From Prevotella melaninogenica (lineage in GTDB: Bacteria; Bacteroidota; Bacteroidia; Bacteroidales; Bacteroidaceae), in the NCBI RefSeq assembly GCF_018127925.1, contig NZ_CP072347.1, positions 870,501-934,500 of the forward strand: a DNA stretch of 64,000 bases, in the 5' to 3' direction. Each line of letters opens with the position of its first letter. Position 1 is the stretch's first letter. The notes below the pieces were generated by a model, which saw only the letters and a program-made list of their open reading frames with translations, had not been told where the DNA came from and searched no databases. Of the stretch, positions 10,854-52,175 are shown piece after piece. Made by a program: the position numbers and the translations under genes.

Positions 10854-10963
10854 GAGGTGCTGAATTGGACTTCAAAAGGGCGTTAGTAAGACCTTAAAAG
10901 GGCATCTTTTAGAAGTCAATTGAGCGTTAATTCGAGTGTAATTAAGCCTTAATAAAAATCGAA
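10854..10963 (+). repeat. 22-bp phased repeat array, copy 1
   Basis: Five consecutive units start at 10854, 10876, 10898, 10920 and 10942, each 22 bp and each ending in AA. The unit reads roughly WWRRGC-N-TTAATT-N-GA and then closes in AA. Unit 1 begins GAGGTGCTGAATTGGACTT and unit 2 AAGGGCGTTAGTAAGACC. The array lies between two terminators, away from coding sequence. Five other arrays of the same kind exist in the window. Confidence 0.8.
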
Positions 10964-11037
10964 GAGAGGAAAATTGTTGACAAAATTGACTTTCTGTTAG
11001 ATTTGAAGTCTAAGTTTTTATGAAATATGAAAAGTAG

Positions 11038-11086
11038 ATGAAAAAAAGAAATCCGCCACCTTATATATTATAGGTTGCGGATTTCT
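11038..11086 (-). terminator. Terminator of the RNase G gene
   Basis: AGAAATCCGC (11047-11056) pairs with GCGGATTTCT (11077-11086), with an inner ACCT/AGGT pair. On the minus strand it is followed by a T-run. Confidence 0.75.
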
Positions 11087-11130
11087 AATGTTGTAAACCT
11101 TTCGTTTTATCTAACGACTTAGTTGTTAGT

Positions 11131-12702
11131 TTAGGATTTATCGTTCTGTTCCTTCATATCAATGAACTGCTGATTCGCATCATAAAACTCATACTGCAAA
11201 TAGGCGAGTTTCTGTGAAGGAATGATATTTACACCTAAACCATACTTCATTTGCCACTTACGTTTCAAGGAAATAAGACCCTTGTTAATGTAAGCTGCAA
11301 CGTAAGGATGAACGTGCAAATAGAATTTCTTTACTCCAACCTTATTAACCAATCGGTCTATCTTACGCTCCAATTGATCGGTAAAGAGAATGCTTGAACG
11401 AATCTTACCACTACCGAAACAAGTAGGGCAGTTCTCATCTACATCTACATCCATTACTGGGCGTACACGCTGACGAGTAATCTGCATCAGTCCGAACTTG
11501 CTCAAAGGAAGGATATTGTGACGTGCACGGTCCTTCTGCATGTTCTTACACATACGCTCGTACAGCATCTGGCGGTCCTCAGCAAGATTCATGTCGATAA
11601 AGTCAACGACAATGATTCCACCCATGTCACGCAGTCGAAGCTGTCGGGCTAACTCGTCGGCAGCACCAAGGTTGGTGTCAAGAGCATTCTGTTCCTGTGC
11701 TTTTTCCTTTGTTCTGTTACCACTATTCACATCTACAACGTGCATTGCCTCAGTGTGTTCAATGATGAGGTAGCATCCATGACCATAATTGATAGTCTTG
11801 CCGAAGCTTGATTTAATTTGCTTCGTAACGTCAAAGTTGTCAAAGATTGGCACCTTACCAGTGTACTTCTTCACTATGCCCGCCTTTTCAGGGGCTATTA
11901 GAGAGACGTAGTGTTGAACGGCAGTGCAAATCTCGTCATCGTTGACGTAGATGTTTTCGTAGGTTGGATTGAAGAGGTCACGCAGCATCGCAACAGCACG
12001 TCCAGTCTCCTCAAAAACAAGTTGAGGGCGTTCCTGCGTTTTCTGCAGTCTTGTGATTGCTTCATTCCAGCGGCTCAGTAGGACTTTCATCTCAGCGTCA
12101 AGCTCGGCTACGCGCTTTCCTTCAGCTACTGTACGGACAATTACACCGAAGTTCTTTGGTGTAATACTCTGTATGAGCTGCTTGAGGCGTGCACGTTCTT
12201 CGCCGCTTTTGATTTTAGAAGATACGCTAACTTTATGCCCGAATGGTATAAGCACCAGGAATCTGCCAGCGAATGATATTTCGCCTGTAAGGCGAGGTCC
12301 TTTGGTGGAAATGGGTTCTTTAACAATCTGCACCATCACCTCTTGTCCTACCTGCAGTGTGTTTTGAACTGTTCCGTCCTTTTGCAAGTCGGGTAGGCGA
12401 GTGGCTTTCTGAATGGGATAAAGTTTCTTGCGGTCGCTCTGAACCTGTTTCAGATACTTTGCATAGGAGTTGAATTGGCTCCCTAAGTCAAGATAATGAA
12501 GAAAGGCGTCACGCTCATAACCTACATCTACAAAGCAGGCATTCAGCCCTGGCATCAGTTTCTTTACCTTTGCCACGTAGATGTTTCCAACCGAGAAGCT
12601 CGCCTCTCTTGGCTCACGCTGGTATTCAACCAGACGCTTGTCTTCGAGTAGAGCTATCGAAATCTCTTTCGGTTGGGCATCAATAATTACTTCGCTTGTC
12701 AT
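11131..12702 (-). CDS. rng: Ribonuclease G (Rne/Rng family)
   Basis: 523 residues, the length of RNase G without the long C-terminal scaffold of RNase E. This endonuclease cuts single-stranded RNA and matures rRNA ends. An S1-type domain lies near residues 35-110 (VGNIYVAKVKKLMPGLNACFVDVG). The catalytic core holds the Mg-binding aspartates in MHVVDVNSGN and GIIVVDFIDM. ENCPTCFGSGKI is the Zn-link that joins subunits. It lies downstream of HU and the 29-residue gene, but a hairpin at 12781-12846 separates it, so it may have separate or read-through transcription. Confidence 0.95.
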   Translation of the reverse strand: MTSEVIIDAQPKEISIALLEDKRLVEYQREPREASFSVGNIYVAKVKKLMPGLNACFVDVGYERDAFLHYLDLGSQFNSYAKYLKQVQSDRKKLYPIQKATRLPDLQKDGTVQNTLQVGQEVMVQIVKEPISTKGPRLTGEISFAGRFLVLIPFGHKVSVSSKIKSGEERARLKQLIQSITPKNFGVIVRTVAEGKRVAELDAEMKVLLSRWNEAITRLQKTQERPQLVFEETGRAVAMLRDLFNPTYENIYVNDDEICTAVQHYVSLIAPEKAGIVKKYTGKVPIFDNFDVTKQIKSSFGKTINYGHGCYLIIEHTEAMHVVDVNSGNRTKEKAQEQNALDTNLGAADELARQLRLRDMGGIIVVDFIDMNLAEDRQMLYERMCKNMQKDRARHNILPLSKFGLMQITRQRVRPVMDVDVDENCPTCFGSGKIRSSILFTDQLERKIDRLVNKVGVKKFYLHVHPYVAAYINKGLISLKRKWQMKYGLGVNIIPSQKLAYLQYEFYDANQQFIDMKEQNDKS

Positions 12703-12780
12703 CTTCTTCGTTTGTTATAAGCTATCATTTAGCGTCTTTTATAGTCTCTACAATGATGCTAAAGGATACTTATAGATAAA

Positions 12781-12846
12781 ATAAAAACGCGGAACCTGTC
12801 GTCGCACTTCCAGGGAAGAGAAGTATATTGCGATGACACGCCCCGC
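12781..12846 (-). terminator. Terminator between the 29-residue gene and RNase G
   Basis: On the minus strand GCGGGGCGTGTCATCGCA (12829-12846) pairs imperfectly with TGCGACGACAGGTTCCGC (12789-12806). It is followed by GTTTTTATTTT. Confidence 0.75.
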
Positions 12847-12889
12847 CATATTATTGAAAGTCAGTTATAAAGCCTTTCAGCCTTGGGGC

Positions 12890-12979
12890 TTACTTGCTCT
12901 TATGTCTGTTCTTTCTTAATCTCTTTTTACGCTTGTGCGTAGCCATCTTGTGTCCCTTTTTCTTCTTTCCGTTTGGCAT
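12890..12979 (-). CDS. Very small, strongly basic conserved protein (29 aa), probably ribosome-associated
   Basis: ATG at 12977-12979 (minus strand) to TAA at 12890. The product begins MPNGKKKKGHKMATHKRKKR, continues LRKNRHKSK, and is more than half Lys, Arg and His. I recognise near-identical tiny proteins beside HU and rng in other Bacteroidota. Extreme basicity and size recall small ribosomal proteins of the THX/bL38 kind, but I cannot say which, if any. It is 42 bp downstream of HU on the same strand and is followed by its own terminator, so HU and this peptide probably form one transcript. An internal ATG could give an 18-residue form. Confidence 0.75.
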   Translation of the reverse strand: MPNGKKKKGHKMATHKRKKRLRKNRHKSK

Positions 12980-13021
12980 AGCTTTAAATTGTTTTAAATT
13001 GTTATTGTATTTATGTTTAAT

Positions 13022-13300
13022 TTATTTCTTCATATCCTCGATGAAGGTCTTTGCTGGCTTGAAACTTGGGAAATCGTGTGCTGGGATAGTGATAGTCGTG
13101 TTCTTTGAGATGTTACGAGCTGTCTTTTCCGCGCGGTGCTTAACGATGAAGCTACCGAAACCACGAAGGTATACATTTTCTTTCTTCTCCAACAAACTGT
13201 CTTTGATGGTTTCCATAAAAGACTCAACCACAGCTGAAACGTCCTTCTTGGCGATGCCAGTAGACGTTGCAATCTCATTGATGATATCTGCTTTCGTCAT
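13022..13300 (-). CDS. hup: HU/IHF family DNA-binding protein
   Basis: 92 residues, the normal size of a single HU subunit. It is a dimeric nucleoid protein that bends DNA. It has MTKADIINEIATSTGIAKKDVSAVVESF at the start, broken by a turn into two helices, then VYLRGFGSFIVKHRAEKTARNI. ARNISKNTTITIPAHDFPSFKP is the beta-arm that grips the minor groove. In place of the common arm Arg-Asn-Pro it has ARNISKN, a frequent Bacteroidota variant. Promoter box CAAAGATA (minus) lies about 55 bp upstream. Confidence 0.94.
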   Translation of the reverse strand: MTKADIINEIATSTGIAKKDVSAVVESFMETIKDSLLEKKENVYLRGFGSFIVKHRAEKTARNISKNTTITIPAHDFPSFKPAKTFIEDMKK

Positions 13301-13354
13301 TTTGTTTTTGTTCTTTATTGATGTTTATTTCTAATCTCTCATTATAACGGAATG

Positions 13355-13362
13355 CAAAGATA
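13355..13362 (-). promoter_or_regulatory. Promoter box for HU
   Basis: The minus strand reads TATCTTTG, a perfect TAnnTTTG, about 55 bp before the HU ATG. Confidence 0.6.
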
Positions 13363-13446
13363 CTCATTTTCAGCTTAATAGAGAAATATTTTTGTGTCTT
13401 TTTTGTAAAATATCTCGGTAAATGCTCTAAACTTTAAGGTTTTTCG

Positions 13447-13454
13447 TACCTTTG
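13447..13454 (+). promoter_or_regulatory. Promoter box for the pantothenate kinase gene
   Basis: TACCTTTG followed by CGACATT. It implies an untranslated leader of nearly 200 bases before coaW at 13654. I recognise no riboswitch in the leader. Confidence 0.5.
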
Positions 13455-13653
13455 CGACATTATAAGTTGTATTTCATGCTTATGTGGAGTATTGGATTTA
13501 ATGATGTTATAAGGATTTGAACCGTTACCAACACTTGCGTAGAGATGATTCTTTATGAGTGGTTACTTGGTGTAAATTCTTATATATTTTGGTTTATTCA
13601 TTATCTCTCAGAAAGCAGTTTTTGCAAGACTTCTGTATAATTATATAAGGTGT

Positions 13654-14484
13654 ATGAAGATTTCCATCGGTATAGATGTGGGTATTTCAACAACCAAGAT
13701 TGTTGGAATCAGAGAGGGAAAGGTTATTAAACCTTTGCGTATCAAGGCTACTGATCCAGTAACGTCCTTGTATGGAGCTTTTGGAAAATATCTATATGAC
13801 AATAGGATAGACCTGTCTGAGGTTGAGCGTGTTATGCTTACGGGTGTAGGTGCTCACTATATTGATAAGCCTGTTTATGGACTTCCAACGGCTAAGGCTG
13901 ATGAGTTTTTGGCTGATGGCTTAGGTGCTCAGTTTGAGTCGAAGTTGCAACGTATGATTGTTGTTTCTATGGGTACGGGTACCTCACTTGTACTTTGTGA
14001 TGGCAATGAGATACGTCATATTGGTGGTATCGGTATTGGTGGCGGTACGTTGAGTGGTCTTTCACGTTTGTTGTTACAGACTGATAACATTAACGAAATC
14101 ATTGCTTTGGCTAATAAGGGAGATATTTCTCGTATCAATCTTCAGATTAAAGACATCTCAACCAGTCCACTTCCAGGCTTGCCAATGGATGCTACTGCAT
14201 CTCTCTTTGCCAATGCGCAGGCTAATGCAAGTCGTGAAGATATTGCCTTAGGCTTGATAGGTCTGGTGTTACAGTCTATCGGTTCAGCAACAATCTTGAG
14301 CTCTTTGAATAGCGATATCCGTGACTTTGTACTCATAGGTAATCTTAGTTTGTTGCCACAATGCGAACTCCTTTTCCCTGTTATGGAGAAGATATACGAT
14401 GTTCGCTTTATTATTCCGAAGAATTCTGAGTATTGTACGGCAATCGGTGCAGCTTTGCAAGCAGATAACATTGAGACAGTTTAA
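13654..14484 (+). CDS. coaW: Type II pantothenate kinase
   Basis: 276 residues. It phosphorylates pantothenate, the first committed step from vitamin B5 to coenzyme A. The N-terminus GIDVGISTTKIVGI is the phosphate-binding loop of the ASKHA fold. VSMGTGTSLVL and GIGGGTLSGLSRLLL are the second and third nucleotide-binding loops. SNYILIGNLS-like FVLIGNLSLLPQCELL and YCTAIGAALQA close the fold. The type II enzyme, usual in Staphylococcus and eukaryotes, is typically resistant to CoA feedback. The panC and panD genes at 48-49 kb supply its substrate. A perfect hairpin terminator follows. Confidence 0.92.
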   Translation: MKISIGIDVGISTTKIVGIREGKVIKPLRIKATDPVTSLYGAFGKYLYDNRIDLSEVERVMLTGVGAHYIDKPVYGLPTAKADEFLADGLGAQFESKLQRMIVVSMGTGTSLVLCDGNEIRHIGGIGIGGGTLSGLSRLLLQTDNINEIIALANKGDISRINLQIKDISTSPLPGLPMDATASLFANAQANASREDIALGLIGLVLQSIGSATILSSLNSDIRDFVLIGNLSLLPQCELLFPVMEKIYDVRFIIPKNSEYCTAIGAALQADNIETV

Positions 14485-14500
14485 TCATTGTTTATAAAGG

Positions 14501-14546
14501 ATTACAGGCACTTTGTAGCGCTGTCTACAAAGTGCCTGTAATTTTA
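14501..14546 (+). terminator. Strong terminator after coaW
   Basis: ATTACAGGCACTTTGTAG pairs perfectly over 18 bp with its complement at 14525-14542 across the 6-base loop CGCTGT. ATTTTAT follows. Confidence 0.9.
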
Positions 14547-14640
14547 TAGTAACCTATCTGCTGTATAGACAGTTAAAGATAAATACCTTTATCCTTTCTT
14601 TAAGATGATATTTTACTTAAAGAGAGGAATTCTCCTAACT

Positions 14641-15204
14641 TGGCTAAGACTGTCAACTATCTATCCTATTGTTATCCTCTGACATTGAAAATCATTTCTT
14701 TTTAGACCTCTATAATCACAGATAAGGTACTGAAAAATCATTACAAAACCTCAAGCAAAACAACTATAAATAACGATAAAAACATGAATAAAAGGCAAGC
14801 TTGTAACCAACAGGAAAACAATTGGTTATAAAACAGCAAAGTAAAAGGTGCTTAATTGGACTTCAAAAGGGCGTTAGTAAGGGTCTTAAAGGGCACCTTT
14901 TGCAAGCCAATTAGGCATCTTTAATAAGCCAAAAGAGCATGTGTTAGTTTTGAACCGTACGAAAATAGTTTACAAGATTCAACTAATGAGGGAATAAGTT
15001 GTTTATATAAGACGGATAGAGATCGCACCTAATTACATCTATCGTGAAGTTTATCCCCCTTTATGAAACCATTTTATTGGAGGAAATCATACTGGTGTTG
15101 GGTGATGGTTGTTGGGTGTTGAGCTTTTATAAAACCATCTTATTTGAAGTAATCATACCATATATGTAGATGAATCTCATACTATTAACAATCTACGCAT
15201 TTAA
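14641..15204 (+). repeat. Arm A of a 565-bp inverted repeat pair
   Basis: This non-coding block recurs in reverse complement at 20320-20884. Matching landmarks in order are AGTCAACTATCTATCCTA, CATTGAAAATCATTTCTTTT, the 22-bp array, GGGATAAGTTGTTTATA versus its counterpart, TTGGGTGTTGAGC, and AACAATCTACGCATTTAA. The arms are diverged but collinear over their full length and nearly equal in size (564 and 565 bp). They enclose about 5.1 kb holding trpB, the symporter, gpx and a lipoprotein gene. Confidence 0.8.
14845..14954 (+). repeat. 22-bp phased repeat array, copy 2 (inside inverted-repeat arm A)
   Basis: Units begin at 14845, 14867, 14889, 14911 and 14933. The first starts AAGGTGCTTAATTGGACTT, the second AAGGGCGTTAGTAAGGGT and the fifth AAGAGCATGTGTTAG. 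CCGTACGAAAATAG follows the last unit. Closest relative is copy 3, in the other arm. Confidence 0.8.
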
Positions 15205-15218
15205 AAGAAGAACCTTAA

Positions 15219-16592: not shown

Positions 16593-16632
16593 TTATACAA
16601 TGGATGAATGTTTATTGAAAGATGATGTACCA

Positions 16633-16640
16633 CAAAGTTA
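16633..16640 (-). promoter_or_regulatory. Promoter box for trpB
   Basis: The minus strand reads TAACTTTG. It diverges from the symporter promoter about 45 bp away. Confidence 0.6.
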
Positions 16641-16683
16641 CAAAATAAGATTTCTTAATTGCATGAAATGATAATATTTTTAG

Positions 16684-16691
16684 TAATTTTG
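16684..16691 (+). promoter_or_regulatory. Promoter box for the sodium:solute symporter, giving a near-leaderless mRNA
   Basis: TAATTTTG lies only 8 bp before the ATG at 16700. If transcription starts the usual few bases after the box, the 5' leader is five bases or fewer. Confidence 0.5.
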
Positions 16692-16699
16692 CTGCCATT

Positions 16700-18118: not shown

Positions 18119-18275
18119 ACTTATAAACAGGAAAAGAGGTTAAATTCTTTATAAAGTGTGCTGAAAGGCAAACAAACCCCATATAAGTTTACCAATAAGC
18201 ATCCTGCAATAAAGTTTATAAACATAATGATGATGCCGCTTTCTTATCATTATTATCTCATGTGTTAAGGCTCAT

Positions 18276-18353
18276 CACCATTGGTGTTAAGCCTTAGCAC
18301 GAGTGGTGTTGATGGTTAGCACCACTCGTGCGGATTAGTAGGCACCAATGGTG
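18276..18353 (+). repeat. Nested palindromic element, copy 2 (best formed)
   Basis: CACCATTGGTG (18276-18286) is complementary to CACCAATGGTG (18343-18353). Inside, GCACGAGTGGTG (18297-18308) pairs perfectly with CACCACTCGTGC (18320-18331). The loop is TTGATGGTTAG. Each outer arm is also nearly self-palindromic. The linker TTAAGCCTTAGCAC recurs in the other copies. Confidence 0.75.
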
Positions 18354-19127: not shown

Positions 19128-19174
19128 TTCTGTTTCTTATCTTCTCTTTATATAGTTTACTTATTTGTGTGTTG

Positions 19175-20277: not shown

Positions 20278-20309
20278 ATCCCACCAACTGCGAAGTTGGT
20301 GGGATTTTT
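20278..20309 (+). terminator. Terminator after the lipoprotein gene
   Basis: ATCCCACCAACT pairs perfectly with AGTTGGTGGGAT across GCGA, followed by TTTTT. Confidence 0.93.
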
Positions 20310-20319
20310 GGTTCCTCCG

Positions 20320-20884
20320 TTAAATGTGTAGATTGTTAATAGAATGAGATAAGTCCACATACATGGTATGATTTCCTCTAATAAGATAGTTTTATAAAGG
20401 CTCAACACCCAACACCCATTACCCAACACCAGTATGCTTATCCCCAATTAGAGGGTTTTAGAATGGGGGATAAACTACTCGATAAACGTAATTAGGTGAG
20501 ATGTCTATCTGTCCTCTACAAACAACTTATTCCCTTATTAATCAAAGTTTGTAAATTATTTTCGTATGGTTCAAAGCCAATACATGCTCTTTTGGCTTCT
20601 AAAAGTTGCCCAATTGACTTGCAAAAGGTGCCCTTTAAGACCCTTACTAACGCCCTTTTGAAGTCCAATTAAGCACCTTTTACTTTACTACTTTATAACT
20701 AATTGATTTCCTGTTGATTACAGACCTGTTTTTTGTATATTGTTTTGCCGTCCTTTATAGATGTTTTATTCGAAATTATGTAATTATTTTTCAAACCATT
20801 GTCTGCATATTTTCGAAGTCTAAAAAGAAATGATTTTCAATGTCAGAGGATGAAAATAGGATAGATAGTTGACTGTCTCAGCCA
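20320..20884 (-). repeat. Arm B of the 565-bp inverted repeat pair
   Basis: Reverse-complement partner of 14641-15204, collinear from TTAAATGTGTAGATTGTT at its left end to GATAGTTGACTGTCTCAGCC at its right end. No gene is present. The IS66 element begins 155 bp to its right. Confidence 0.8.
20570..20679 (-). repeat. 22-bp phased repeat array, copy 3 (inside inverted-repeat arm B)
   Basis: Read on the minus strand the five units start at 20679, 20657, 20635, 20613 and 20591. The first is identical to unit 1 of copy 2, and the second matches it as well. Confidence 0.8.
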
Positions 20885-21039
20885 TATTTTTGTTTAATGG
20901 GTTGCTTCGTTTCTTACATTAAAGCAATACGAAAAGCGTCCACACATTTAACGGAAGAACCGGATTTTTTTCTTTATTCTTTGTCGTTTAATTAATGTAT
21001 TCTATAATTGTAAACTCTGAATTTGTCTTAATCATATTT

Positions 21040-22621
21040 GTAACTATTCAGCGATAATTGATATATATTATCAAACCTTAAATAAGGCTTGAATCGCATT
21101 ATATGGCGTTTTGTCGTGCTTCTTAGCTGTTTCTACAATCGAATGAAGTTCAAGGAAAGCGTCTGCTCCGAAGTCTGAACGAAAAGCACAGGAGTTCTTC
21201 AGTTTGATTTTTAGCTTGCGTATTCCACGTTCACTTCCATTATTGTCAAATGGTATCATCGGATTTTCGAGGAAATTGAAAATGTAATCTCTGCATTTGA
21301 CCAAGCCTTTTCTGAACGTAATAAACTTTTTACCAAGCTCCTCTATATTCTGTTTGAGTAGATTGTCTAAACGTCGGGTCCATGACACCTTGTCTATAAC
21401 GTTGTTCGGATTGGTATTCCGCTCGTGAATGGCTTCACGGAACAGATTGGTTACTTTCCCAGACCACTCTTGCTTAGTGTTCAACTCTGAGAGATATTGC
21501 AGTTCGCGCAGTAAGTGAGCAAGGCATACCTGATGATTGAGGAAATGGAGTGCAAAGTATGCGCTATGGCGGTCGGTAACGGCAGTCATTCGTTCCAGGC
21601 TATCGCCAAATTTGTCTGCTAATACCTTCGACCCTCTTCCATTAGCACGGAAAAGCAGTGTGTAATAAACGGTTTGTGCAATCCATGCCCAGTCGAGTCT
21701 TTTCTTACAGTACAAGCCGCTCTCATCGAAACCAACAACTGCTGATGACTTAATATATCCTTTAATTTTATCAATCACAGGTTGCGCATTTCTCTTTGCC
21801 TCATTTACCCAGTTCACCAGTGAGCCTTCGCTTGGAGTGAGTCCAAATACCTCACGCAAAAAACTTGCTATGCGACCGTAAGGAAGAAATTGTACGACAC
21901 TCAGATAAACCACTAAGGACTTTATGCTTGAATCATATACCACGTTGTTTGACCGCCGTCTCGGTACTGTCCGAATACGTTCACCACAGTTCTTGCATAC
22001 CATCACATAGTGTCGGATTTCCTTGATTACGGGCTTCAACTCTGGAATGGAAATAACCTGCGTCACATAATCAAGCACACGTTCTGCATCTGATAAAGAT
22101 TCTCCGCAACGAGTGCAATAGTTGGGTATCTCATCAATTATCTCGTCAGGTATGGAAGAGTAAGACAACTTATGCCCATCATGCCCCTTTTGTCCTCCCG
22201 GCTTCTTACCACTTGGCTTACGGAGGCTTCTTGTTCTTCTGATAACCTCATCCTTTATACGCTCCTTGCTTGGAGGAGTGCTGCTGTTATTAGAGTTTTT
22301 GTCAGGTTTTTCATACTTAGCTAAGCGTTCCCGTAAGTTTATAAGTTCCGTATCTTTCTTGCGAATTTGGAGGTTCAAAGCATTTATGTTACGGTTCAAT
22401 TTGATAATCTCGGCATACTGCTGATTAACAGTTGCACGTAATAATCGCATCTCTTCCGTCATGCCTTGTAATACTTTTGATATGTCCGTAACCTGCTCTT
22501 TCATAGGTATAAAGGTACAAAGAAAATCTGAAATACGCAAGAAAAACAAGCATATTTATAGCCTTTATACTAAGATTTTAGAGGAGAAAATACAGACTGA
22601 TCAATACCGCTGAATAGTTAC
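21040..22621 (-). mobile_element. Complete IS66-family insertion sequence with target duplication
   Basis: The element is 1,582 bp. Terminal inverted repeats start GTAACTATTCAGCG on both ends, with GTAA typical of IS66. After that the arms diverge, the left continuing ATAATTGAT and the right GTATTGAT. It is bounded by the 8-bp direct repeat TCATATTT at 21032-21039 and 22622-22629, the size IS66 elements generate. It carries a single transposase and no tnpA/tnpB accessory genes, as in the ISBst12-like subgroup. Confidence 0.92.
21071..22504 (-). CDS. IS66-family transposase (TnpC type)
   Basis: 477 residues from the ATG at 22504. An upstream in-frame start at 22549 would add a hydrophobic stretch that overlaps the promoter region. 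Residues 15-65 form a leucine-zipper coiled coil, followed by a Lys/Ser-rich linker typical of IS66. Zinc-binding pairs are C130-x2-C133 and C170-x2-C173. The DDE triad is D260 (VGFDESGLY), D311 (VTDRHSAYF) and E425 (NNGSERGIRKLK). The reading frame is intact and the ends are present, so the element could still move. Confidence 0.93.
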   Translation of the reverse strand: MKEQVTDISKVLQGMTEEMRLLRATVNQQYAEIIKLNRNINALNLQIRKKDTELINLRERLAKYEKPDKNSNNSSTPPSKERIKDEVIRRTRSLRKPSGKKPGGQKGHDGHKLSYSSIPDEIIDEIPNYCTRCGESLSDAERVLDYVTQVISIPELKPVIKEIRHYVMVCKNCGERIRTVPRRRSNNVVYDSSIKSLVVYLSVVQFLPYGRIASFLREVFGLTPSEGSLVNWVNEAKRNAQPVIDKIKGYIKSSAVVGFDESGLYCKKRLDWAWIAQTVYYTLLFRANGRGSKVLADKFGDSLERMTAVTDRHSAYFALHFLNHQVCLAHLLRELQYLSELNTKQEWSGKVTNLFREAIHERNTNPNNVIDKVSWTRRLDNLLKQNIEELGKKFITFRKGLVKCRDYIFNFLENPMIPFDNNGSERGIRKLKIKLKNSCAFRSDFGADAFLELHSIVETAKKHDKTPYNAIQALFKV

Positions 22622-24519: not shown

Positions 24520-24875
24520 ATTTGAAATATTATTACAATCTTAATGGCTTTTATACCATGTTTCTCATCAAAACACTACTGTTTTGAATGCGTTTGTAAG
24601 TTTCAGATAAACAGGTATTTATAAAACTATAAGGTAATAGGTGCTTAATAGCATTGCAAAAGGGCGTTAGTTAGGATGTAACTAACGCCCTTTTACACGT
24701 CAATTAAGCCTTAATTCGAATGCAATTAAGCCTTAGTTGTTTTCTGATACTATGATTTTATTTTACAATCTGATGGATGTTAAGATGCTATTATGTGACA
24801 ATGGTACCATAGAACTTGTCTTTTGGGGACATTCTATAGCTATGGTTTCTTTGCACAAAGTAGCTGTTTAGGTGT
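24520..24875. other. Gene-free stretch between the convergent SGNH hydrolase and DMT exporter
   Basis: 356 bp. It contains the 22-bp array copy 4 (24638-24747) and nothing else I can name. Within the array, GGGCGTTAGTTAG and CTAACTAACGCCC form a perfect inverted repeat that could act as a terminator stem. Confidence 0.6.
24638..24747 (+). repeat. 22-bp phased repeat array, copy 4
   Basis: Units begin at 24638, 24660, 24682, 24704 and 24726. Unit 1 starts TAGGTGCTTAATAGC, unit 2 AAGGGCGTTAGTTAGG, and units 4 and 5 both start TTAAGCCTTA. Unit 3 (CTAACGCCCTTTTAC) is the complement of unit 2, which makes a hairpin of AAAAGGGCGTTAG with CTAACGCCCTTTT. Confidence 0.8.
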
Positions 24876-25787: not shown

Positions 25788-25891
25788 TAGTTGTTTGTTA
25801 TAATTTAAATTAATATTAAATCATTGAAATTCAGTCGTTATTATGAATACTCTCTTTCCTTACTTTAATATGTATAGACTTGCTTTCACAA

Positions 25892-25984
25892 ATTATTCTC
25901 ATGGAAATAAATTTTTATTTACGTGATAAAATACATTTATTTCCATGAAAATAAACTCCTCTTTTCACGTAAATAATTCACGAG
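25892..25984. repeat. AT-rich CATG/CACG palindromic element, copy 1
   Basis: Successive short arms TTCTCATGGAAATAA, TTTATTTACGTGATAAAA, TTTATTTCCATGAAAATAAA and TTTTCACGTAAATAATTCACG. It is in the leader between the DMT exporter gene and its promoter. The arms TTTCATGAAAATAA and TTTTCACGTAAATAA recur at 60571-60658. Confidence 0.55.
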
Positions 25985-29636: not shown

Positions 29637-30143
<507 letters not shown>

Positions 30144-32064: not shown

Positions 32065-32105
32065 AGTGCCTAACGGGGTAAAAGAAGTAAATAAGCAAAC
32101 CGTTT

Positions 32106-32214
32106 GAAGAAAATTTCTAACGGGTCGGAAGAAAATTTCTCTACGGTGAGAAATTTATGTGCCTACGGTTGGAAAGAAATTTTTCACAAAGGAAAATTTT
32201 CTTCCGACCGTAGG
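32106..32214. repeat. Clustered GGAAGAAAATTTC direct and inverted repeats
   Basis: GAAGAAAATTTCT occurs at 32106 and 32129, a variant GAGAAATTT at 32148, and GGAAAGAAATTTTTC at 32171. The inverted form GAAAATTTTCTTCCGACCG (32192-32210) is complementary to CGGGTCGGAAGAAAATTTC with one bulge. The region is non-coding in my reading: an in-frame stretch from a TTG at 32104 only reflects the repeats. Confidence 0.6.
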
Positions 32215-32466: not shown

Positions 32467-32913
32467 ATGAAGATTAAACTTCAAAAGAAAAAGAATCCGC
32501 AGAAGCGGACAGAGGAAAAGTACTATGCTAATCCTGTAAATCTTGGTAAGAATACCTTGCGGGATATTGCACGCGACATTGCGGGGCGTTCTTCGCTGAC
32601 ACGTGGTGACATCGAAAACGTGTTGTCAAACTTTATGGACAGTCTGCCTCATTATCTCCGCGATGGCTTTAGCGTGCAGTTGGGGGAGTTTGGCACGATG
32701 CGCCTGACTCTTTCAAGCGAGGGGGCTGCAACGGAAAAGGCTTTTAAGACAGAAACCATCAAGCCGCGCGTAACGTTTACGCCGGGTGTAGAGCTGAAAG
32801 CTGCGCTGCGCGAGAACTCGTATGAAACGGTGAAGGAGGAAAACTCTAGTTCAAAACCTTCTCATAAAGACGAGGGAAATGGAAAGAATCCTGGACCTGT
32901 GCCAGAGGACTAA
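32467..32913 (+). CDS. HU-like DNA-binding protein of the HU-HIG type
   Basis: 148 residues. The Bacteroidota HU-like family has an N-terminal strand rich in Lys, here MKIKLQKKKNPQKRTEEKYY, followed by a wHTH/HU helical pair, LRDIARDIAGRSSLTRGDIENVLSNFMDSLP. SVQLGEFGTMRLTLSSEG leads into the beta-arm, and IKPRVTFTPGVELKAALREN closes the fold. The last 30 residues are a disordered Glu/Ser/Lys tail ending GKNPGPVPED. Such proteins are numerous in Bacteroidales surface-polysaccharide and surface-protein loci. A DNA-architectural or regulatory role in switching is plausible and unproven. A palindrome-rich hairpin follows it. Confidence 0.85.
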   Translation: MKIKLQKKKNPQKRTEEKYYANPVNLGKNTLRDIARDIAGRSSLTRGDIENVLSNFMDSLPHYLRDGFSVQLGEFGTMRLTLSSEGAATEKAFKTETIKPRVTFTPGVELKAALRENSYETVKEENSSSKPSHKDEGNGKNPGPVPED

Positions 32914-32952
32914 AAGGAACGTTGACTGTTGGTCAAGGATAAACGAAAAAGA

Positions 32953-33006
32953 GTTCGCGAACAAATCGGAAATTGTTCGCGAACTTTTTTAAGATTGTTC
33001 GCGAAC
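32953..33006. terminator. Terminator and triplicated GTTCGCGAAC palindrome
   Basis: The perfect 10-bp palindrome GTTCGCGAAC occurs at 32953, 32975 and 32997, exactly 22 bp apart. The first two lie within AGTTCGCGAACAA and TTGTTCGCGAACT, which pair over 13 bp and are followed by TTTTT, a good terminator for the HU-like gene. The third copy again ends in TTTTT. Confidence 0.75.
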
Positions 33007-33052
33007 TTTTTAATTTACAAACTATATTTATCAACTTTAGAGTATTAATATT

Positions 33053-42375: not shown

Positions 42376-42684
42376 AGTAGAATCTGAACGCAGGGTTAAG
42401 AAATATCATTACAAAATAGCTGAGTATTCTACATGTTTTTTCTTAAAAAAGAGCCTTTTTTACCGTGTCTGTAACTTTCAGTTAATCAATGTGTTGTAAA
42501 ATAGCATAAGAAAAGGTGCTTAGTTAGCGTCTAACTAAGCACCTTTAAGGCCTCAATTAAGCATCTTTTGAATGTCAATTAAGGCTTAATTGGAATGCAA
42601 CTAAGCATCAAATCATTCTTTAAAGATGACTTTTATATTACAAATTTGGTAAGGGTAGGAGGTGATAATTCCTTCCCTTGGATT
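42376..42684. other. Gene-free stretch holding a 22-bp array
   Basis: 309 bp between convergent genes. Apart from array copy 5 (42513-42622) I see only an imperfect -7 box, TAACTTTC, at about 42471. Confidence 0.6.
42513..42622 (+). repeat. 22-bp phased repeat array, copy 5
   Basis: Units begin at 42513, 42535, 42557, 42579 and 42601. Unit 1 starts AAGGTGCTTAGTTAGCG, unit 2 CTAAGCACCTTTAAGG, unit 3 TTAAGCATCTTTTG and unit 4 TTAAGGCTTAATTGG. Units 1 and 2 together form the inverted repeat AAAGGTGCTTAGTTAG / CTAACTAAGCACCTTT. Confidence 0.8.
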
Positions 42685-45308: not shown

Positions 45309-45354
45309 CAAAAACAAAGAATCGGACATACATGGGTGTTGTAAGTCCGATTCT
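45309..45354 (-). terminator. Terminator after the 43-residue gene
   Basis: AGAATCGGAC (45318-45327) pairs perfectly with GTCCGATTCT (45345-45354). On the minus strand TTTGTTTTTGG follows. Confidence 0.85.
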
Positions 45355-45369
45355 ACATTTTATATTCTA

Positions 45370-45501
45370 TTACAGTGCTTCGTCGTCAGGCTTCTGAAGT
45401 TTCACTTTGGGCTGTCGTCCCAAGTGCTTTTTCTTACGAAGCCAAGCCGCCTTGCGCTGCTCATATTCCTCACGATGACGTTCCAAGAAGTTATCTGCCA
45501 T
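45370..45501 (-). CDS. Small conserved protein (43 aa) at the end of the DUF4270 operon
   Basis: ATG at 45499-45501 to TAA at 45370. The product begins MADNFLERHREEYEQRKAAW and ends LQKPDDEAL; a Lys/Arg-rich centre (LRKKKHLGRQPKVK) makes it basic and mostly helical. Its start overlaps the last 11 bases of the DUF4270 gene, implying coupled translation. Similar tiny proteins occur in the same place in other Bacteroidales. Function unknown, and a terminator follows directly. Confidence 0.7.
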   Translation of the reverse strand: MADNFLERHREEYEQRKAAWLRKKKHLGRQPKVKLQKPDDEAL

Positions 45502-46936: not shown

Positions 46937-46969
46937 TTAGAATATCTTAATTGTATGAATCTAAGTGTA

Positions 46970-47779: not shown

Positions 47780-47864
47780 TCTTTATATTAGAATTTTTGT
47801 TTCTGCAACTATTGCAAGCAAACGCATAGAATGTTAGTCTTTTCTGGGCGCAGCTTATTTTCTG

Positions 47865-47872
47865 CAAAGGTA
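47865..47872 (-). promoter_or_regulatory. Promoter box for the GT5/DUF4270 operon
   Basis: The minus strand reads TACCTTTG, about 86 bp before the GT5 ATG, in the divergent gap with panC. Confidence 0.55.
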
Positions 47873-48008
47873 CGAAAAAAAAATGAGACAACTCCTGCTT
47901 TCGCCTGAAAACAAATAAAAAGTAGGGCATGTTGAGATTATTTAATTAAAATCTCGTCTATTTAATTATTTTGTTGTTACTTTGCATCGATTTTAATTTT
48001 AGAGACTG

Positions 48009-48860
48009 ATGAAAGTTATCCAAAAGATTGTTGAACTTCAGAACGAACTTTTCTCTTGTCGCAAGGAAAACAAAACTATTGGATTAGTTCCTACGATGGG
48101 TGCGTTGCATGATGGTCATGCGTCACTTGTGAAACAAAGCGTCAAGGAGAATGATATAACAGTTGTTTCTGTTTTTCTTAATCCTACCCAGTTTAATGAT
48201 AAGGGAGATTTAGAACGTTATCCTCGTACATTAGAGGCTGATTGTAAGCTTATTGAAGCTTGTGGAGCAGACTATGTTTTTGCCCCATCTGTTGAAGAAG
48301 TCTACCCTAAACCAGATAATCGTCAATACGAGTTTTCACCACAATCTACAGTGATGGAGGGTGCAAAACGTCCTGGTCATTTCAATGGTGTTTGCCAAGT
48401 TGTCAGCAGATTATTCTATATTGTTCATCCAGACAGAGCCTATTTCGGTGAGAAAGATTGGCAGCAGATAGCTGTTATCAAACGTCTTGTTGACTTCATT
48501 GGCATGAAGGATGAAATAACGATAGTAGAGTGTCCAATTATACGTGATGCAGACGGTCTGGCTATGAGTTCACGCAATATGCTATTGACAGCCGATGAGC
48601 GTGCTGTAGCACCGAAAATATATGAGGCGTTAAGTCAAAGTGTAGCGTTCTCTAAGACCCATACTGTTGCAGAAACACGTGAGAAAGTTATTGCCGATAT
48701 CAATGCAGTAGACGGACTTGAGGTAGAATATTTTGAGATTGTAGATGGCAACACGCTTCTTGAAGTAAATACATGGGAAGCGTATGTCGTAGGTTGTATT
48801 ACTGTTTATTGTGGCCATACGCCTATCCGACTTATTGACCACATAAAATACAGAGGATAA
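48009..48860 (+). CDS. panC: Pantothenate synthetase (pantoate-beta-alanine ligase)
   Basis: 283 residues, normal length. It joins pantoate and beta-alanine with [18 protein letters not shown] holds the HIGH-like HDGH motif (H34, H37). [11 protein letters not shown] and [19 protein letters not shown] bind pantoate, and [15 protein letters not shown] with [15 protein letters not shown] bind ATP. panD follows 9 bp later, and its product makes the beta-alanine. A weak box TTACTTTG lies 25 bp before the ATG. Confidence 0.96.
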
Positions 48861-48869
48861 TAAGAAAAG

Positions 48870-49214
48870 ATGCAGATAGAAGTATTAAAAAGTAAGTTGC
48901 ACTGTGCTACTGTCACAGAGGCAAATCTTCATTATATGGGTAGTATTACCATTGATGAAGACTTGTTGGATGCTGCTAATATGATAGCAGGTGAAAAGGT
49001 TCAAATTGTGAATAACAACAATGGTGAACGCTTTGAAACTTATATTATTAAGGGAGAAAGAGGCTCTGGCTGTATTTGCCTTAATGGTGCAGCAGCTCGC
49101 AAGGTTGTAGTAGGGGATGAGGTAATAATTATCTCTTATGCATTGATGGATTTTGAAGAAGCAAAAACCTTCAAGCCTTCAATTGTATTTCCTAAGGAAG
49201 GCAATCGACTATAA
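48870..49214 (+). CDS. panD: Aspartate 1-decarboxylase
   Basis: 114 residues, normal length. It makes beta-alanine from aspartate with a pyruvoyl group formed by self-cleavage. The cleavage site is G24-S25 in [30 protein letters not shown] is the conserved substrate loop. [14 protein letters not shown] and [12 protein letters not shown] are typical of the family. Co-transcribed with panC. With the coaW product at 13.7 kb it provides the beta-alanine arm of coenzyme A synthesis. panB and panE are not in this window. Confidence 0.95.
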
Positions 49215-49297
49215 ACAGATAGAAAATAGTATTAGCCAAAGGATTAATCCTTTGAGTGTGTAAGTGTAGGGCGTAGTGTCCTTACTGTTATAAGCAT

Positions 49298-49415
49298 ACA
49301 ATCACATTTCTTCTTTCAATGTAAGGTAAGGAAGTTATTTATTAATAAGGTGTAACTTAATAATAGATATTCCTCTTTCCTGCTTGGAGAAAGAAATGTG
49401 ATTGTGTGTTTTTTA
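49298..49415 (+). terminator. Long-loop hairpin after panCD
   Basis: ACAATCACATTTCTT (49298-49312) pairs perfectly with AAGAAATGTGATTGT (49391-49405), and TTTTTT follows soon after. The 78-base loop contains smaller arms. It fills most of the 311-bp gap, in which I see no gene. Confidence 0.7.
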
Positions 49416-49444
49416 TGTTCTATATTTTGATGTACTATTATCAA

Positions 49445-49478
49445 AAAGCGAGGGTATGTCGTAATGACACACCCTCTT
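49445..49478 (-). terminator. Terminator of the carboxylase operon
   Basis: GAGGGT with TGTC pairs with GACA and ACCCTC across GTAAT and a one-base bulge. On the minus strand CGCTTTTTGAT follows. Confidence 0.75.
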
Positions 49479-49525
49479 GAGAAAATGATAATAGCATCAG
49501 TGACGAATGTCAACTGATAGCAGAA

Positions 49526-49954
49526 TTATTCAATAACAACCAATGGGTCGTCCTCAAGCACAGCCTGACCGACCTTTACAGCAATAGCAGTTACCTTGCC
49601 ATCCTTCTCAGCTTCGATGTTGTTCTGCATCTTCATTGCCTCGAGGACAACAACAGTATCGCCAGCCTTTACCTCCTGACCAACAGTCACCTCAACAGAT
49701 GTGATGGTTCCAGGAAGTGGAGCCTTAACAGCTGCAGAACTGTTGATAGCAACAGCAGGAGTAGCCTCCTCACTTGCCTCAGCAGCAGCTGGCTTACCAA
49801 GCTCAACCTTCTTCTTCTCTGGCTCAGCAGGCTGTTCCATCTGTACTGCATACTGCTCTCCGTTGACAGATACTTCTGCAACATTCTCGGCATTAATCTC
49901 ACCAATCTCGACTTTATATTCCTTGCCGTCGATAGTATATTTGAATTCTTTCAT
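49526..49954 (-). CDS. Biotin carboxyl-carrier protein of a decarboxylase/carboxylase
   Basis: 142 residues. Residues 1-40 form a small N-terminal beta domain (MKEFKYTIDGKEYKVEIGEI). An Ala/Glu/Pro linker covers about 41-72. The biotinyl domain covers 73-142, with the acceptor K108 in VLEAMKMQNN and matching strands VKAPLPGTITSVEV and LEDDPLVVIE. It carries CO2 between enzyme sites. Last gene of the operon after the carboxyltransferase and the 49-residue OadG-like gene. It probably belongs to methylmalonyl- or propionyl-CoA metabolism, part of the succinate/propionate pathway. Confidence 0.92.
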   Translation of the reverse strand: MKEFKYTIDGKEYKVEIGEINAENVAEVSVNGEQYAVQMEQPAEPEKKKVELGKPAAAEASEEATPAVAINSSAAVKAPLPGTITSVEVTVGQEVKAGDTVVVLEAMKMQNNIEAEKDGKVTAIAVKVGQAVLEDDPLVVIE

Positions 49955-49963
49955 TGTTGTCTA

Positions 49964-50113
49964 TTATGGTTTCTTTGTCATTATCTCGAACTTAGCATCC
50001 CACATTGTCTGCTTTGGCAGAATAGTGATAATACCTGATTCGTTATCGTGAACATTGTTTCCGGCAAACTCATAGAGTGCCATTGCAATAGCTGCATATA
50101 CGTTCTTATCCAT
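49964..50113 (-). CDS. Small OadG-tail-like protein (49 aa) of the carboxylase operon
   Basis: ATG at 50111-50113 to TAA at 49964. The product begins MDKNVYAAIAMALYEFAGNN and continues VHDNESGIITILPKQTMWD. AAIAMALY...VHDxES...TI resembles the cytoplasmic tail of OadG-type subunits of sodium-pumping decarboxylases. The N-terminal membrane helix of OadG (normally about 80 residues in total) is missing, so it could not anchor a complex. It is 17 bp after the carboxyltransferase gene and 9 bp before the biotin-carrier gene. This position is where oadG usually sits in Bacteroidota. Confidence 0.72.
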   Translation of the reverse strand: MDKNVYAAIAMALYEFAGNNVHDNESGIITILPKQTMWDAKFEIMTKKP

Positions 50114-50130
50114 AGTCGCGTGCCTCCTTA

Positions 50131-51696
50131 TTACATTGGCATACAGCCATGCTTCTTAGCTGGTAAGTCTTGCTTCTTATGAGCCAACTGAGCTAAGCCG
50201 CGGCAGATGCGGAAACGAGTGTTGCGTGGTTCGATAACATCGTCGATATAGCCGAACTGAGCTGCCTGATATGGATTAGCAAACTTCTCAGAGTACTCCT
50301 CTTCCTTTTCAGCGAGGAACTGCTTAACGTCGCCACCCTGCTCTTTAACTTCTTTAGCTTCTCTACCACAGAGAACGGCAACAGCACCAGATGCACCCAT
50401 AACGGCAATCTCTGCGCTTGGCCATGCAAAGTTGAGGTCAGAACGGAGCTGCTTGCAACCCATAACGATGTGTGAACCACCATAGCTCTTACGCAATGTG
50501 ATAGTAATCTTTGGAACTGTAGCCTCACCGTAAGCATAGAGCAACTGTGCACCGTGAAGGATTACAGCGTTATACTCCTGACCAGTACCTGGGAGGAAAC
50601 CTGGTACGTCAACAAGTGAAACGATTGGAATATTGAAAGCATCGCAGAAACGAACGAAGCGCGCACCCTTACGGCTTGCGTTAGTATCTAATACTCCTGC
50701 GTAGGCTGATGGCTGGTTAGCTACGATACCAACACTTTGACCATTGAAACGAGCGAAACCAGTGATGATGTTCTTAGCAAACTTTGGCTGAACCTCAAAG
50801 AACTCTCCGTTGTCAGTTACAGCCTGAATTACCTTGTACATATCGTATGCCTGGTTTGGATCGTCTGGGATAATCTCGTTCAAGAGGTCTTCCTTACGGT
50901 CGATAGGGTCAGTACACTCTACACGTGGTGCTTCCTCGCGGTTGTTTGAAGGAATGTAAGAAAGGAGCTTCTTGATAAGGTCCATTGCCTCTTCCTCAGT
51001 CTTAGCTGTGAAGCTTGTTACACCGCTCTTTGAAGCGTGAACGCTTGCACCACCAAGGTGCTCTGCGTCGATATCTTCACCAGTTACGGTCTTTACAACC
51101 TTAGGACCAGTCAGAAACATGTAACTTGTCTGCTCCTTCATGATGATGAAGTCTGTCAATGCTGGAGAGTAAACTGCACCACCGGCACATGGACCAAGGA
51201 TGCTTGAGATCTGTGGGATAACACCAGAAGCGAGGATATTACGCTCGAAGATTTCGCCGTAACCTGCCAAAGCAGAGATACCCTCCTGGATACGTGCGCC
51301 ACCAGAGTCGTTCATACAGATGACTGGTGCACCGTTAGTCATAGCCATATCCATTACCTTGCAGATCTTCTGAGCCATTGTTTCAGAAAGCGAGCCACCA
51401 TTTACGGTGAAGTCCTGTGCATAGAGGTAGACGAGACGACCGTCGATAGTTGCTGAACCAGCAACAACACCATCACCGAGGTACTGCTTCTTCTCCATAC
51501 CGAAGTTATGACAACGATGGAGTTTGAACATATCGTATTCCTCGAAGCTGCCTTTGTCAACCAGCATTTCAATACGCTCACGTGCAGTATACTTTCCGCG
51601 CTCATGCTGCTTGTCGATAGCCTTCTGGCCACCACCTAAGCGTGCTAACTCGCGCTTCTCCACGAGTGCCTTGATCTTTTCTGTTTGCTTACTCAT
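50131..51696 (-). CDS. Acyl-CoA carboxyltransferase beta subunit (PccB/MmdA type)
   Basis: 521 residues, normal for the family. It transfers CO2 between biotin and an acyl-CoA, probably methylmalonyl/propionyl-CoA. N-terminal crotonase half: ARERIEMLVDKGSFEEYDMF, GSLSETMAQKICKVMD and MNDSGGARIQEGI (oxyanion loop). C-terminal half: GFLPGTGQEYNAVILHGAQL, ITLRKSYGGSHIVMGCKQL and GASGAVAVLCGREAKE. It ends in PAKKHGCMPM, as in many Bacteroidota members. With the OadG-like and biotin genes it forms a compact operon. A biotin carboxylase and oadB are not here, so the complex may be completed elsewhere. Promoter TAATTTTG (minus) lies about 115 bp upstream. Confidence 0.95.
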   Translation of the reverse strand: MSKQTEKIKALVEKRELARLGGGQKAIDKQHERGKYTARERIEMLVDKGSFEEYDMFKLHRCHNFGMEKKQYLGDGVVAGSATIDGRLVYLYAQDFTVNGGSLSETMAQKICKVMDMAMTNGAPVICMNDSGGARIQEGISALAGYGEIFERNILASGVIPQISSILGPCAGGAVYSPALTDFIIMKEQTSYMFLTGPKVVKTVTGEDIDAEHLGGASVHASKSGVTSFTAKTEEEAMDLIKKLLSYIPSNNREEAPRVECTDPIDRKEDLLNEIIPDDPNQAYDMYKVIQAVTDNGEFFEVQPKFAKNIITGFARFNGQSVGIVANQPSAYAGVLDTNASRKGARFVRFCDAFNIPIVSLVDVPGFLPGTGQEYNAVILHGAQLLYAYGEATVPKITITLRKSYGGSHIVMGCKQLRSDLNFAWPSAEIAVMGASGAVAVLCGREAKEVKEQGGDVKQFLAEKEEEYSEKFANPYQAAQFGYIDDVIEPRNTRFRICRGLAQLAHKKQDLPAKKHGCMPM

Positions 51697-51811
51697 AATT
51701 TGAATTTATTTTCTTATTTATAGCTTCTTAATAAATTATCTTTTAATCATCTGTTTCTTCCTGCCAATTTATTTTGTAGGAGCAAAAAGGCTCTTATTAC
51801 AGAATCAAATG

Positions 51812-51819
51812 CAAAATTA
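51812..51819 (-). promoter_or_regulatory. Promoter box for the carboxylase operon
   Basis: The minus strand reads TAATTTTG followed by CATTTGATTC. Confidence 0.5.
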
Positions 51820-52065
51820 CTAAAAAAGGTGGAGATAGTTATCTTCACCTCTTTAAATATTGTTAAGGTTTTAGGTTTAATGGCTTCTATCTGTATCTAA
51901 TTATATAGCTCCGTGGGAAAAAGATGGTGTTTAATAGGCAAGATGTATCTGTTACATGCTATTCTGACGATGATAAGTGTTTTTTGAGTTATTGATAAAG
52001 CGATAGGTTGCTAATCGCTCTGTGTTTATCATTCACACTTCTATTTTGTAATGAAAATTCAAATC

Positions 52066-52175
52066 CTGAAAAGTAAAATATGCTCTTTGGGCTTCTAATT
52101 AAGGCTTAATTGACTTGTAAAAGATGCCTTTTTGAGGTCTTACTAACGCCCTTTTGAAGTCTAATTAAGCACCTT
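52066..52175 (-). repeat. 22-bp phased repeat array, copy 6
   Basis: On the minus strand units start at 52175, 52153, 52131, 52109 and 52087. Unit 1 is AAGGTGCTTAATTAGAC, unit 2 AAGGGCGTTAGTAAGACC (one change from copy 1) and unit 4 TTAAGCCTTAATTAG. The fifth unit is the least conserved. Confidence 0.78.

Follow-up and report, generated by a model that had tools for sequence, protein, structure and literature searches.

A dispersed intergenic repeat with 22-bp phasing in Prevotella melaninogenica and its likely relationship to PINSR

Introduction

Six arrays of a 22-bp tandem repeat lie between genes in a 64,000-nucleotide stretch of the Prevotella melaninogenica genome (contig NZ_CP072347.1, positions 870,501 to 934,500; hereafter the window), and they raise the question of what kind of element they belong to and what might recognize it. 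Our analysis shows that the arrays are the cores of an intergenic repeat of about 250 bp that is likely related to PINSR, a repeat of Prevotella intermedia, and is present in about 150 copies in this genome. As to function, we favor a tentative reading, given slightly less than even weight, in which the arrays are phased double-stranded platforms for proteins of the HU/IHF superfamily and a counterpart of PINSR, spread in part by a miniature inverted-repeat transposable element (MITE).

Structure, copy number and constraint of the element

The original prediction for this DNA described six spacerless intergenic arrays of five 22-bp units each, with the third and sixth inverted, and all of this is borne out, the orientation by direct reading of the sequence. 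Its estimate of ~150 bp for the whole element was too short, the actual length being ~250 bp. A profile made from sequence only (R1; 251 positions, from 26 copies in this genome, five of them window copies) found exactly six full-length elements in the window, at 134-150.5 bits (E 1.8e-40 to 1.5e-45): element 1 (10740..10986, plus strand, array 10854-10963), element 2 (14730..14977, plus, array 14845-14954), element 3 (20547..20795, minus, array 20570-20679), element 4 (24521..24769, plus, array 24638-24747), element 5 (42398..42645, plus, array 42513-42622) and element 6 (52043..52289, minus, array 52066-52175). In order, the element comprises an end motif (tGAAA.at..TTACA in aligned copies), a poorly conserved spacer of constant length (~50 bp), a leader (TTTGTAAC...cag..aaTCA....gTTa.AAA), the five units, and then another end motif (tGAa......TtACAa) that runs the same way as the initial one. 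The core measures 241-250 bp over 109 copies in this genome, collected by a profile that favors full-length copies; by a tolerant motif test, 65 of these are free-standing and 44 carry sequence of an ISL3-type MITE. With respect to the unit order proposed originally, unit 1 of array 1 is GGTGCTGA, and array 5 has a unit 2 of the inverse-complement type. Units 2 and 3 of element 4, and units 1 and 2 of element 5, are mutual inverse complements.

Likeness between the units of one array is moderate (0.45-0.57 identity at lag 22, against 0.38-0.45 at the best other lag from 15 to 35), and for this reason a plain period scan detects only array 6 of the six; the other five of its six window segments are arrays of separate families, termed B to E and described below. 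The case against chance is instead the recurrence of the whole ordered element some 150 times in the genome. Searched with R1, the two-contig, 3.36-Mb genome has at least 150 places among the best 150 of 2,503 candidates. In an even sample of twenty 20-kb stretches (400 kb) we counted 18 elements, two of them partial, which gives ~150 genome-wide; 14 of these 18 are within the 150-place list, and by that measure the total would be nearer 190. An extrapolation from the window itself (six in 64 kb, or ~315 copies) was dropped in favor of the 400-kb sample.

The element is real and under constraint. Among the 65 free-standing copies, columns of low information are 0.308 identical, against 0.284 expected from composition, and conserved columns 0.767, with 0.3% gaps; the 33 copies read from Prevotella histicola give 0.286 against 0.275, 0.752 and 0.5%, and their maximal pairwise identity is 0.754. 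The spacers have thus reached saturation, whereas the motifs and the distances between them are maintained, as would be expected of mostly old copies kept by selection on motifs and spacing. The low identities between copies rule out recent segmental duplication, the objection raised with the original prediction, as the source of all six arrays, which are members of a dispersed family. A coding function for all six is likewise rejected, as originally argued: the period is not a multiple of 3, and no open reading frame (ORF) of more than 150 aa runs through the 109 elements.

The arrays had also been placed at 3' ends of genes as often as at 5' ends, whereas in the window convergent genes flank five of the six and codirectional genes flank array 6 (genes around elements were called by length alone). 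Convergent-only placement, which the window would suggest, is ruled out by the 109-copy list (38 convergent, 49 codirectional and 22 divergent; 27, 30 and 8 for free-standing copies and 11, 19 and 14 for MITE copies), and such sites are enriched, not exclusive. Within the 464 kb formed by the 400-kb sample and the window, 21 of 24 elements fit between two called genes; the gap is convergent in 11 of these 21, against 41 of 322 gaps that carry no element (p 4e-5). Where gaps have at least 100 bp besides the element, the fraction that carry one is 10/41 for convergent, 7/113 for codirectional and 3/40 for divergent gaps, and the convergent fraction again exceeds that of all other gaps (10/153, p 0.002). 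Within the window alone, with gaps of 150 bp or more as the reference, free-standing copies show no significant convergent excess (p 0.47).

Relationship to PINSR and other known repeats

No named family was recognized in the original prediction, but PINSR of P. intermedia and Prevotella nigrescens (PMC4755523) probably has the same layout. PINSR is described as a 188-bp intergenic non-coding repeat without inverted-repeat ends, with 177-184 copies in P. intermedia; it is also found in P. nigrescens, Prevotella falsenii and Prevotella disiens, and tests by polymerase chain reaction were negative in Prevotella aurantiaca and Prevotella pallens (PMC4755523). Copies from P. falsenii and P. nigrescens served as a stand-in for the published consensus. 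The P. falsenii element is 187 bp long (GTAAATATTTTTC ... TTTACAAA) and consists of a leader (GTAACTATC..ATCA), 22-bp dyads (AAAACCGTAGGTTTT) and a tail (GAATTATCTTTACAAA), in that order; it is most probably PINSR. Two P. nigrescens records, among them one of strain F0103, together have 12 places with elements of this type. A blastn search with one P. falsenii copy, counting both strands and short pieces among the best 40 candidates per genome, gave 80 matches in P. falsenii, 48 in P. disiens, 43 in P. aurantiaca, 5 in P. pallens and none in Prevotella corporis.

Like PINSR as published, the window element is intergenic and of high copy number (~150 versus 177-184), and its free-standing copies lack terminal inverted repeats, their end motifs being direct repeats. 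It also shares the order of leader, array and tail with the P. falsenii-type element. Unlike PINSR, the window element is 241-250 bp rather than 188 bp long and has different units, and its left end motif points the opposite way to that of the P. falsenii-type element; 22-bp phasing is not mentioned in the available part of the published description of PINSR (PMC4755523). Shuffle tests of the shared layout against the P. falsenii-type element gave p values of 0.17 for the P. melaninogenica leader, 0.26 for its tail and 0.002 for its left end (reverse-complemented), and 0.016 and 0.005 for the P. histicola leader and tail. As these part-by-part results are mixed, a common origin with PINSR is likely but not proven, and the window element is probably the counterpart or variant of PINSR in the P. 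melaninogenica clade. PINSR has gone without an explanation since 2015, and it shares with the window element a layout of fixed length and two-turn phasing.

Among other described systems, the BrickBuilt MITE of Porphyromonas gingivalis (Klein et al. 2015, PMC4596501) has a 23-nt unit and 19 copies of 1 to 22.8 units. It resembles the window element as a spacerless, intergenic, MITE-borne short tandem repeat with leader and tail; it differs in its unit length, 23 nt rather than 22 bp, and in its IS5-like ends (GAGACCTTTGCA), which were found within 350 bp of 0/109 P. melaninogenica elements. REP and BIME elements are palindromic units present by the hundreds in intergenic DNA and at gene ends, in mosaics with IHF and gyrase sites. 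The window element is similarly a mosaic of many intergenic palindromic units with an IHF-type site at gene ends, but its phase is fixed at 22 bp and its genome has no REP-associated tyrosine transposase (RAYT). The iterons of plasmid origins are direct arrays of ~22-bp binding sites on one helix face, whereas the window element exists in ~150 chromosomal copies; unlike a CRISPR, its arrays have no unique spacers between repeats. No curated Rfam family matched the window at gathering scores, and searches of open-licence PMC papers found PINSR in one paper and, among the titles and abstract openings listed, no description of 22-bp phasing in Prevotella or of arrays at HU-HIG genes.

Period-22 arrays in Prevotellaceae and their link to HU-HIG genes

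Exact 22-bp phasing of unrelated units is a family-wide habit in Prevotellaceae. Around RNase G in 80 named Prevotellaceae loci (214 kb intergenic) we found 36 period-22 segments, against at most 8 at any other period from 15 to 35 and none in shuffles, and the 464 kb of the P. melaninogenica genome hold 28, against at most 5 at any other period. Four other Bacteroidales genomes gave one segment each at 22, 23 and 32, from 36 kb of intergenic DNA, too little to compare. Array units look unrelated between Prevotellaceae genomes, and dyads with at least 7 arm matches are present in 12 of 39 consensus units versus 3% of shuffled units. Distant Prevotellaceae arrays were not found to share the flank motifs of the window element, which exceeded the control 95th percentile at few of 39 (left 6, leader 1, right 5). 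In each of two genomes (L183:13722 and L184:11606), a 22-bp array of one unit family (TTACA..TGTAA dyads) stands just past a 1,082-aa frame, and these look like the same site in two species.

Beside the element, the 464 kb contain 22 other 22-bp segments, one of which is an AC run. Family B (TTTTCATGAAAA dyads) has seven loci, family C (GCACC/GGTGC) seven, and families D and E two each. In the window, the period scan placed family B at 25888..25981 and 60546..60678; family C (GCACC..GGTGC dyads) lies at 18241..18351 between convergent genes. Families D (AGAAAATTTCTAACGGGT, 32082..32176) and E (dyad TTGTTCGCGAACAA, 32923..33020) flank a HU-HIG gene of 148 aa (32467..32913, plus strand; PF18291, E 1.7e-25), upstream and downstream, respectively. 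The genome has an expanded family of such genes, with 39 places and about 30 genes of HU-HIG type. Twenty aligned paralogues are 62-99% identical, and the upstream sequence is alike in the three copies compared. Among 23 HU-HIG genes inspected, the D motif is upstream in 18 and two or more E motifs are downstream in nine. Burroughs and colleagues reportedly published a paper on HU clades in 2017.

This association extends beyond one locus. In the 400-kb sample a 22-bp array lies within 600 bp of 6 of 7 HU-HIG-like frames versus 8% of random placements, and at the RNase G loci the figures are 2 of 3 versus 3.5%. Seven other Prevotellaceae genomes gave 61 PF18291 matches, canonical HU included, from which 22 HU-HIG loci were examined and 21 scored. 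An array is present within 600 bp upstream of 13 of the 21 HU-HIG genes and of 6 of 95 other genes (Fisher 6e-8), and downstream of 0/21 and 13/95, respectively. Hoylesella oralis contributes three near-duplicates to the 13, with the same score and array position; when near-duplicates are counted once, the comparison is 11/19 versus 6/95 (p 9e-7). None of eight canonical HU genes has an upstream array. In P. melaninogenica, upstream arrays are found at 12 of 20 HU-HIG genes versus 22 of 253 others. Period 22 occurred in 12 of 19 HU-HIG neighborhoods and any other period in at most five, in a scan with some gene strands misassigned.

The frequent 22-bp phasing upstream of HU-HIG genes suggests a protein that reads the arrays; it offers a candidate reader for the repeats and hints at what the expanded HU-HIG proteins might do. 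The most surprising part of this work, to us, is that the 22-bp rule extends across the family and is linked to the promoters of HU-HIG genes. A broader picture, possible but doubtful, is that across Prevotellaceae many HU-HIG paralogues would each read their own 22-bp dyad array, with upstream arrays serving autoregulation, dispersed families (the window element, PINSR, B and C) acting as chromosome-wide targets, and units changing by species while the 22-bp step stays fixed. Two HU-like paralogues (L394 and L431) share the array unit type AGTATATTTCGTGGGGCACAAA and other paralogues have others; array unit type seems, from these sequences, to follow HU protein subfamily.

Mobility and occurrence in other species

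Fragments of an insertion element had been named as another objection to a repeat family, and it applies to elements 2 and 3, which lie inside MITEs, but not to elements 1, 4, 5 and 6, which are free-standing. In the MITE subfamily to which elements 2 and 3 belong, similarity continues as far as the inverted repeats GGTTCTTCCGTTAAA / TTTAACGGAAGAACC, over a span of 567-652 bp in 11 copies, and the ends GGTTCTTCCGTTAAA are shared with an insertion sequence (IS) of the ISL3 family. The MITE carrying element 3 is complete (20310..20961, minus strand, 652 bp), with both ends present. It is bordered by an 8-bp target duplication, aaaaatcc (20302-20309 and 20962-20969), of a kind also seen at several other MITE copies. 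At element 2 only the right inverted repeat is found, in decayed form (15200..15214, plus strand), and the left end is not recognizable. No ISL3-type ends with two or fewer mismatches surround elements 1, 4, 5 or 6. The genome has six copies of an ISL3 IS with the MITE's ends (at most 2 mismatches), of 1,305-1,306 bp; five have 8-bp duplications and four keep an unbroken 406-aa frame. At a further locus (L022; G000:C2, ~514-515 kb) the MITE's ends surround a broken ISL3-family transposase, whose pieces match Zn_ribbon_ISL3 and DDE_Tnp_ISL3, and this IS is nested within a MITE copy. Since a MITE holds two of the six window copies, and in one case its ISL3-type ends are clear, part of the element's spread is ordinary transposition. 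RAYT-mediated mobility is rejected, with no match to PF01797 in the genome.

Across species, R1 was counted at E 1e-6 among the best 150 candidates per genome, with overlapping opposite-strand matches included. The profile count, proposed originally as a check, extends the family to P. histicola (at least 150), Prevotella jejuni (147), Prevotella multiformis (125) and Prevotella denticola (69), with fewer in Prevotella veroralis (8), Prevotella vespertina (5), P. corporis (4), Prevotella brunnea (4) and P. pallens (2), and none in P. falsenii (best 150 of 1,827 candidates). Any match at this E value was found in 15 of 60 genomes drawn from the genus (best 34 candidates each), and a match at E 1e-10 in 4 of 20 relatives, none of these outside the genus; both figures include the P. 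melaninogenica genome itself. The phages and plasmids searched gave no match to the element at E 1e-5. Unit sequences are species-specific, with near-perfect dyads AAAAGGGCRYCTTTT in P. histicola, and the 20 copies read from P. multiformis are MITE-like with slightly different units.

Compared with the 109 P. melaninogenica copies, four of 32 P. histicola sites share both neighbors and four share one. Of the four that share both, one (L257) is the orthologue of element 6, with P. melaninogenica-type units in the same orientation, in the spacer between carboxyltransferase and radical-SAM genes. Two shared-neighbor sites are independent insertions, one in opposite orientation, and another sits in a region ~95% identical to the P. 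melaninogenica genome. No sites share both neighbors with P. melaninogenica copies among 5 in P. jejuni and 20 in P. multiformis. At L326 and G000:C2:1697110, element and flanks are ~95% identical by eye between P. melaninogenica and P. histicola; this region is likely a recent exchange, because it is so alike although another orthologous spacer is near saturation.

These data bear on the strongest alternative to a protein-binding platform, that of a selfish passenger: an old MITE-type family, a BrickBuilt-like minisatellite in a transposable element, with no cellular function and with motifs that are sites for the mobilizing enzyme. In its favor are the 44 of 109 copies with ISL3-MITE sequence, the target duplications of the MITE (16 copies averaging 5.3/8 matching versus 2.9 mispaired), the six IS copies with matching ends, P. 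melaninogenica-type copies of 145-149 bits in P. corporis, P. denticola and P. veroralis, and the few sites that species share. However, 65 of the 109 copies are without the MITE; one ISL3-type end lies within 350 bp of 7 of these, and scanning all 65 for target duplications gave nothing convincing (best 2.55/8 versus 2.07 mispaired over 625 offset pairs). The ceiling of 0.754 identity in P. histicola and the lack of a RAYT also argue against a passenger, which would leave the HU-HIG link and the family-wide period unexplained. We consider it unlikely.

Recognition of the arrays as double-stranded DNA

The platform that we favor would act at the level of double-stranded DNA. The leader contains, at a near-constant place, the motif WATCARNNNNTTR, which we take to be the IHF consensus, in 43/65 free-standing and 38/44 MITE copies of P. 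melaninogenica, 16/20 of P. multiformis and 14/33 of P. histicola, compared with 0-0.6% in shuffles; in 8 of 15 usable PINSR-type copies it stands 14-15 bp ahead of the array. The suggestion that each unit presents the same helical face fits both the 22-bp step, which is fixed with almost no indels, and the A/T steps, which fall at an 11-bp phase beyond unit permutation in P. melaninogenica (2.50 versus 1.47), P. histicola (2.74 versus 1.66) and P. falsenii-type copies (2.90 versus 1.54), and also in P. multiformis. We read the units as near-palindromic double-strand sites that could be used either way round. In this scheme the IHF-type site would bend the DNA, and five same-face sites 22 bp apart would be bound side by side by HU/IHF-superfamily proteins, with HU-HIG paralogues as leading candidates for 22-bp arrays in general. 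The product would be a complex, bent and wrapped, that occupies intergenic gaps, more often where genes converge, and it may serve as a node for the nucleoid or for supercoiling, a role proposed for BIMEs. An ISL3-type MITE would have captured part of the family, its transposase spreading those copies.

Several observations weigh against this reading. Eight of the 21 scored HU-HIG genes are without an upstream array, all three of P. histicola among them; no HU-HIG gene was found to carry the window element's own units in its promoter, and R1 is near only 3 of 41 HU-family loci (38 places in P. melaninogenica plus P. histicola genes), no more than chance density. Fewer than half of the P. histicola copies have the IHF consensus. 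Sites are poorly conserved, element 6 being the only clear orthologue among the 32 P. histicola sites. The free-standing copies are not fully star-like (nearest-neighbor identity with a median of 0.713 and a maximum of 0.866), and their spacers are 0.571 alike versus 0.496 in column shuffles. Of 39 other Prevotellaceae arrays only 2 show A/T phasing, and the P. melaninogenica copies fail the A/T-phase test if a turn is set at 10.5 bp (0.10). Finally, both strands of the arrays fold better than their dinucleotide shuffles, with mean z from -2.2 to -8.2 over groups, and some unit pairs are complementary beyond permutation (units 4 and 5, z 5.5 in P. melaninogenica and 3.9 in P. histicola; units 2 and 3, 5.5 in the MITE).

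The folding results support a second alternative, an RNA-level element in which transcribed 3' ends carry unit hairpins that terminate transcription or protect mRNA. For the two strands, z was -3.7/-3.2 in P. melaninogenica, -4.4/-3.4 in the MITE, -7.0/-8.2 in P. histicola and -3.2/-2.2 in P. multiformis (20 copies each), and -6.3/-5.8 in the P. falsenii type (14 copies). Further pairs stand out in P. histicola (units 1 and 5, z 2.8; units 2 and 4, 2.3; units 1 and 2, marginal at 1.9), some units are mutual inverse complements, and window copies lie mostly at gene 3' ends. We keep an RNA-level reading as a rival because both strands fold well. On the other hand, a conserved RNA fold is rejected, as the aligned element has an RNAalifold energy of only -1.2 kcal/mol and the leader arms show no covariation. 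The most complementary unit pair, read from consensus units, varies by lineage while both strands behave alike, and shared unit types can account for the excess complementarity. RNA hairpins require no 22-nt phase, and the Rfam search of the window was negative. The convergent neighbors of element 1, a 735-aa ORF and RNase G, each have a terminator-like hairpin of their own outside the array, the right one identified by eye. Altogether an RNA-level role appears quite improbable.

Intrinsic curvature alone, with phased A/T tracts forming, for example, a gyrase or nucleoid wrapping site free of sequence-specific recognition, draws on the 11-bp phase of A/T steps and on a simple wedge model (at 11 bp per turn, an end-to-end/contour ratio of 0.68-0.83 versus 0.94-0.95 in shuffles, a control that ignores the harmonic of period 22), but it is hardly probable, as letter-by-letter unit conservation within species far exceeds the A/T phase and all but those two of the 39 distant arrays are unphased.

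Other features of the window

Two further features were observed. A gene for an IS66-family transposase (21071-22549) adjoins element 3. At 29730-29806, ~38 AC dinucleotides run unbroken within a called 185-aa frame, a possible phase-variation tract.

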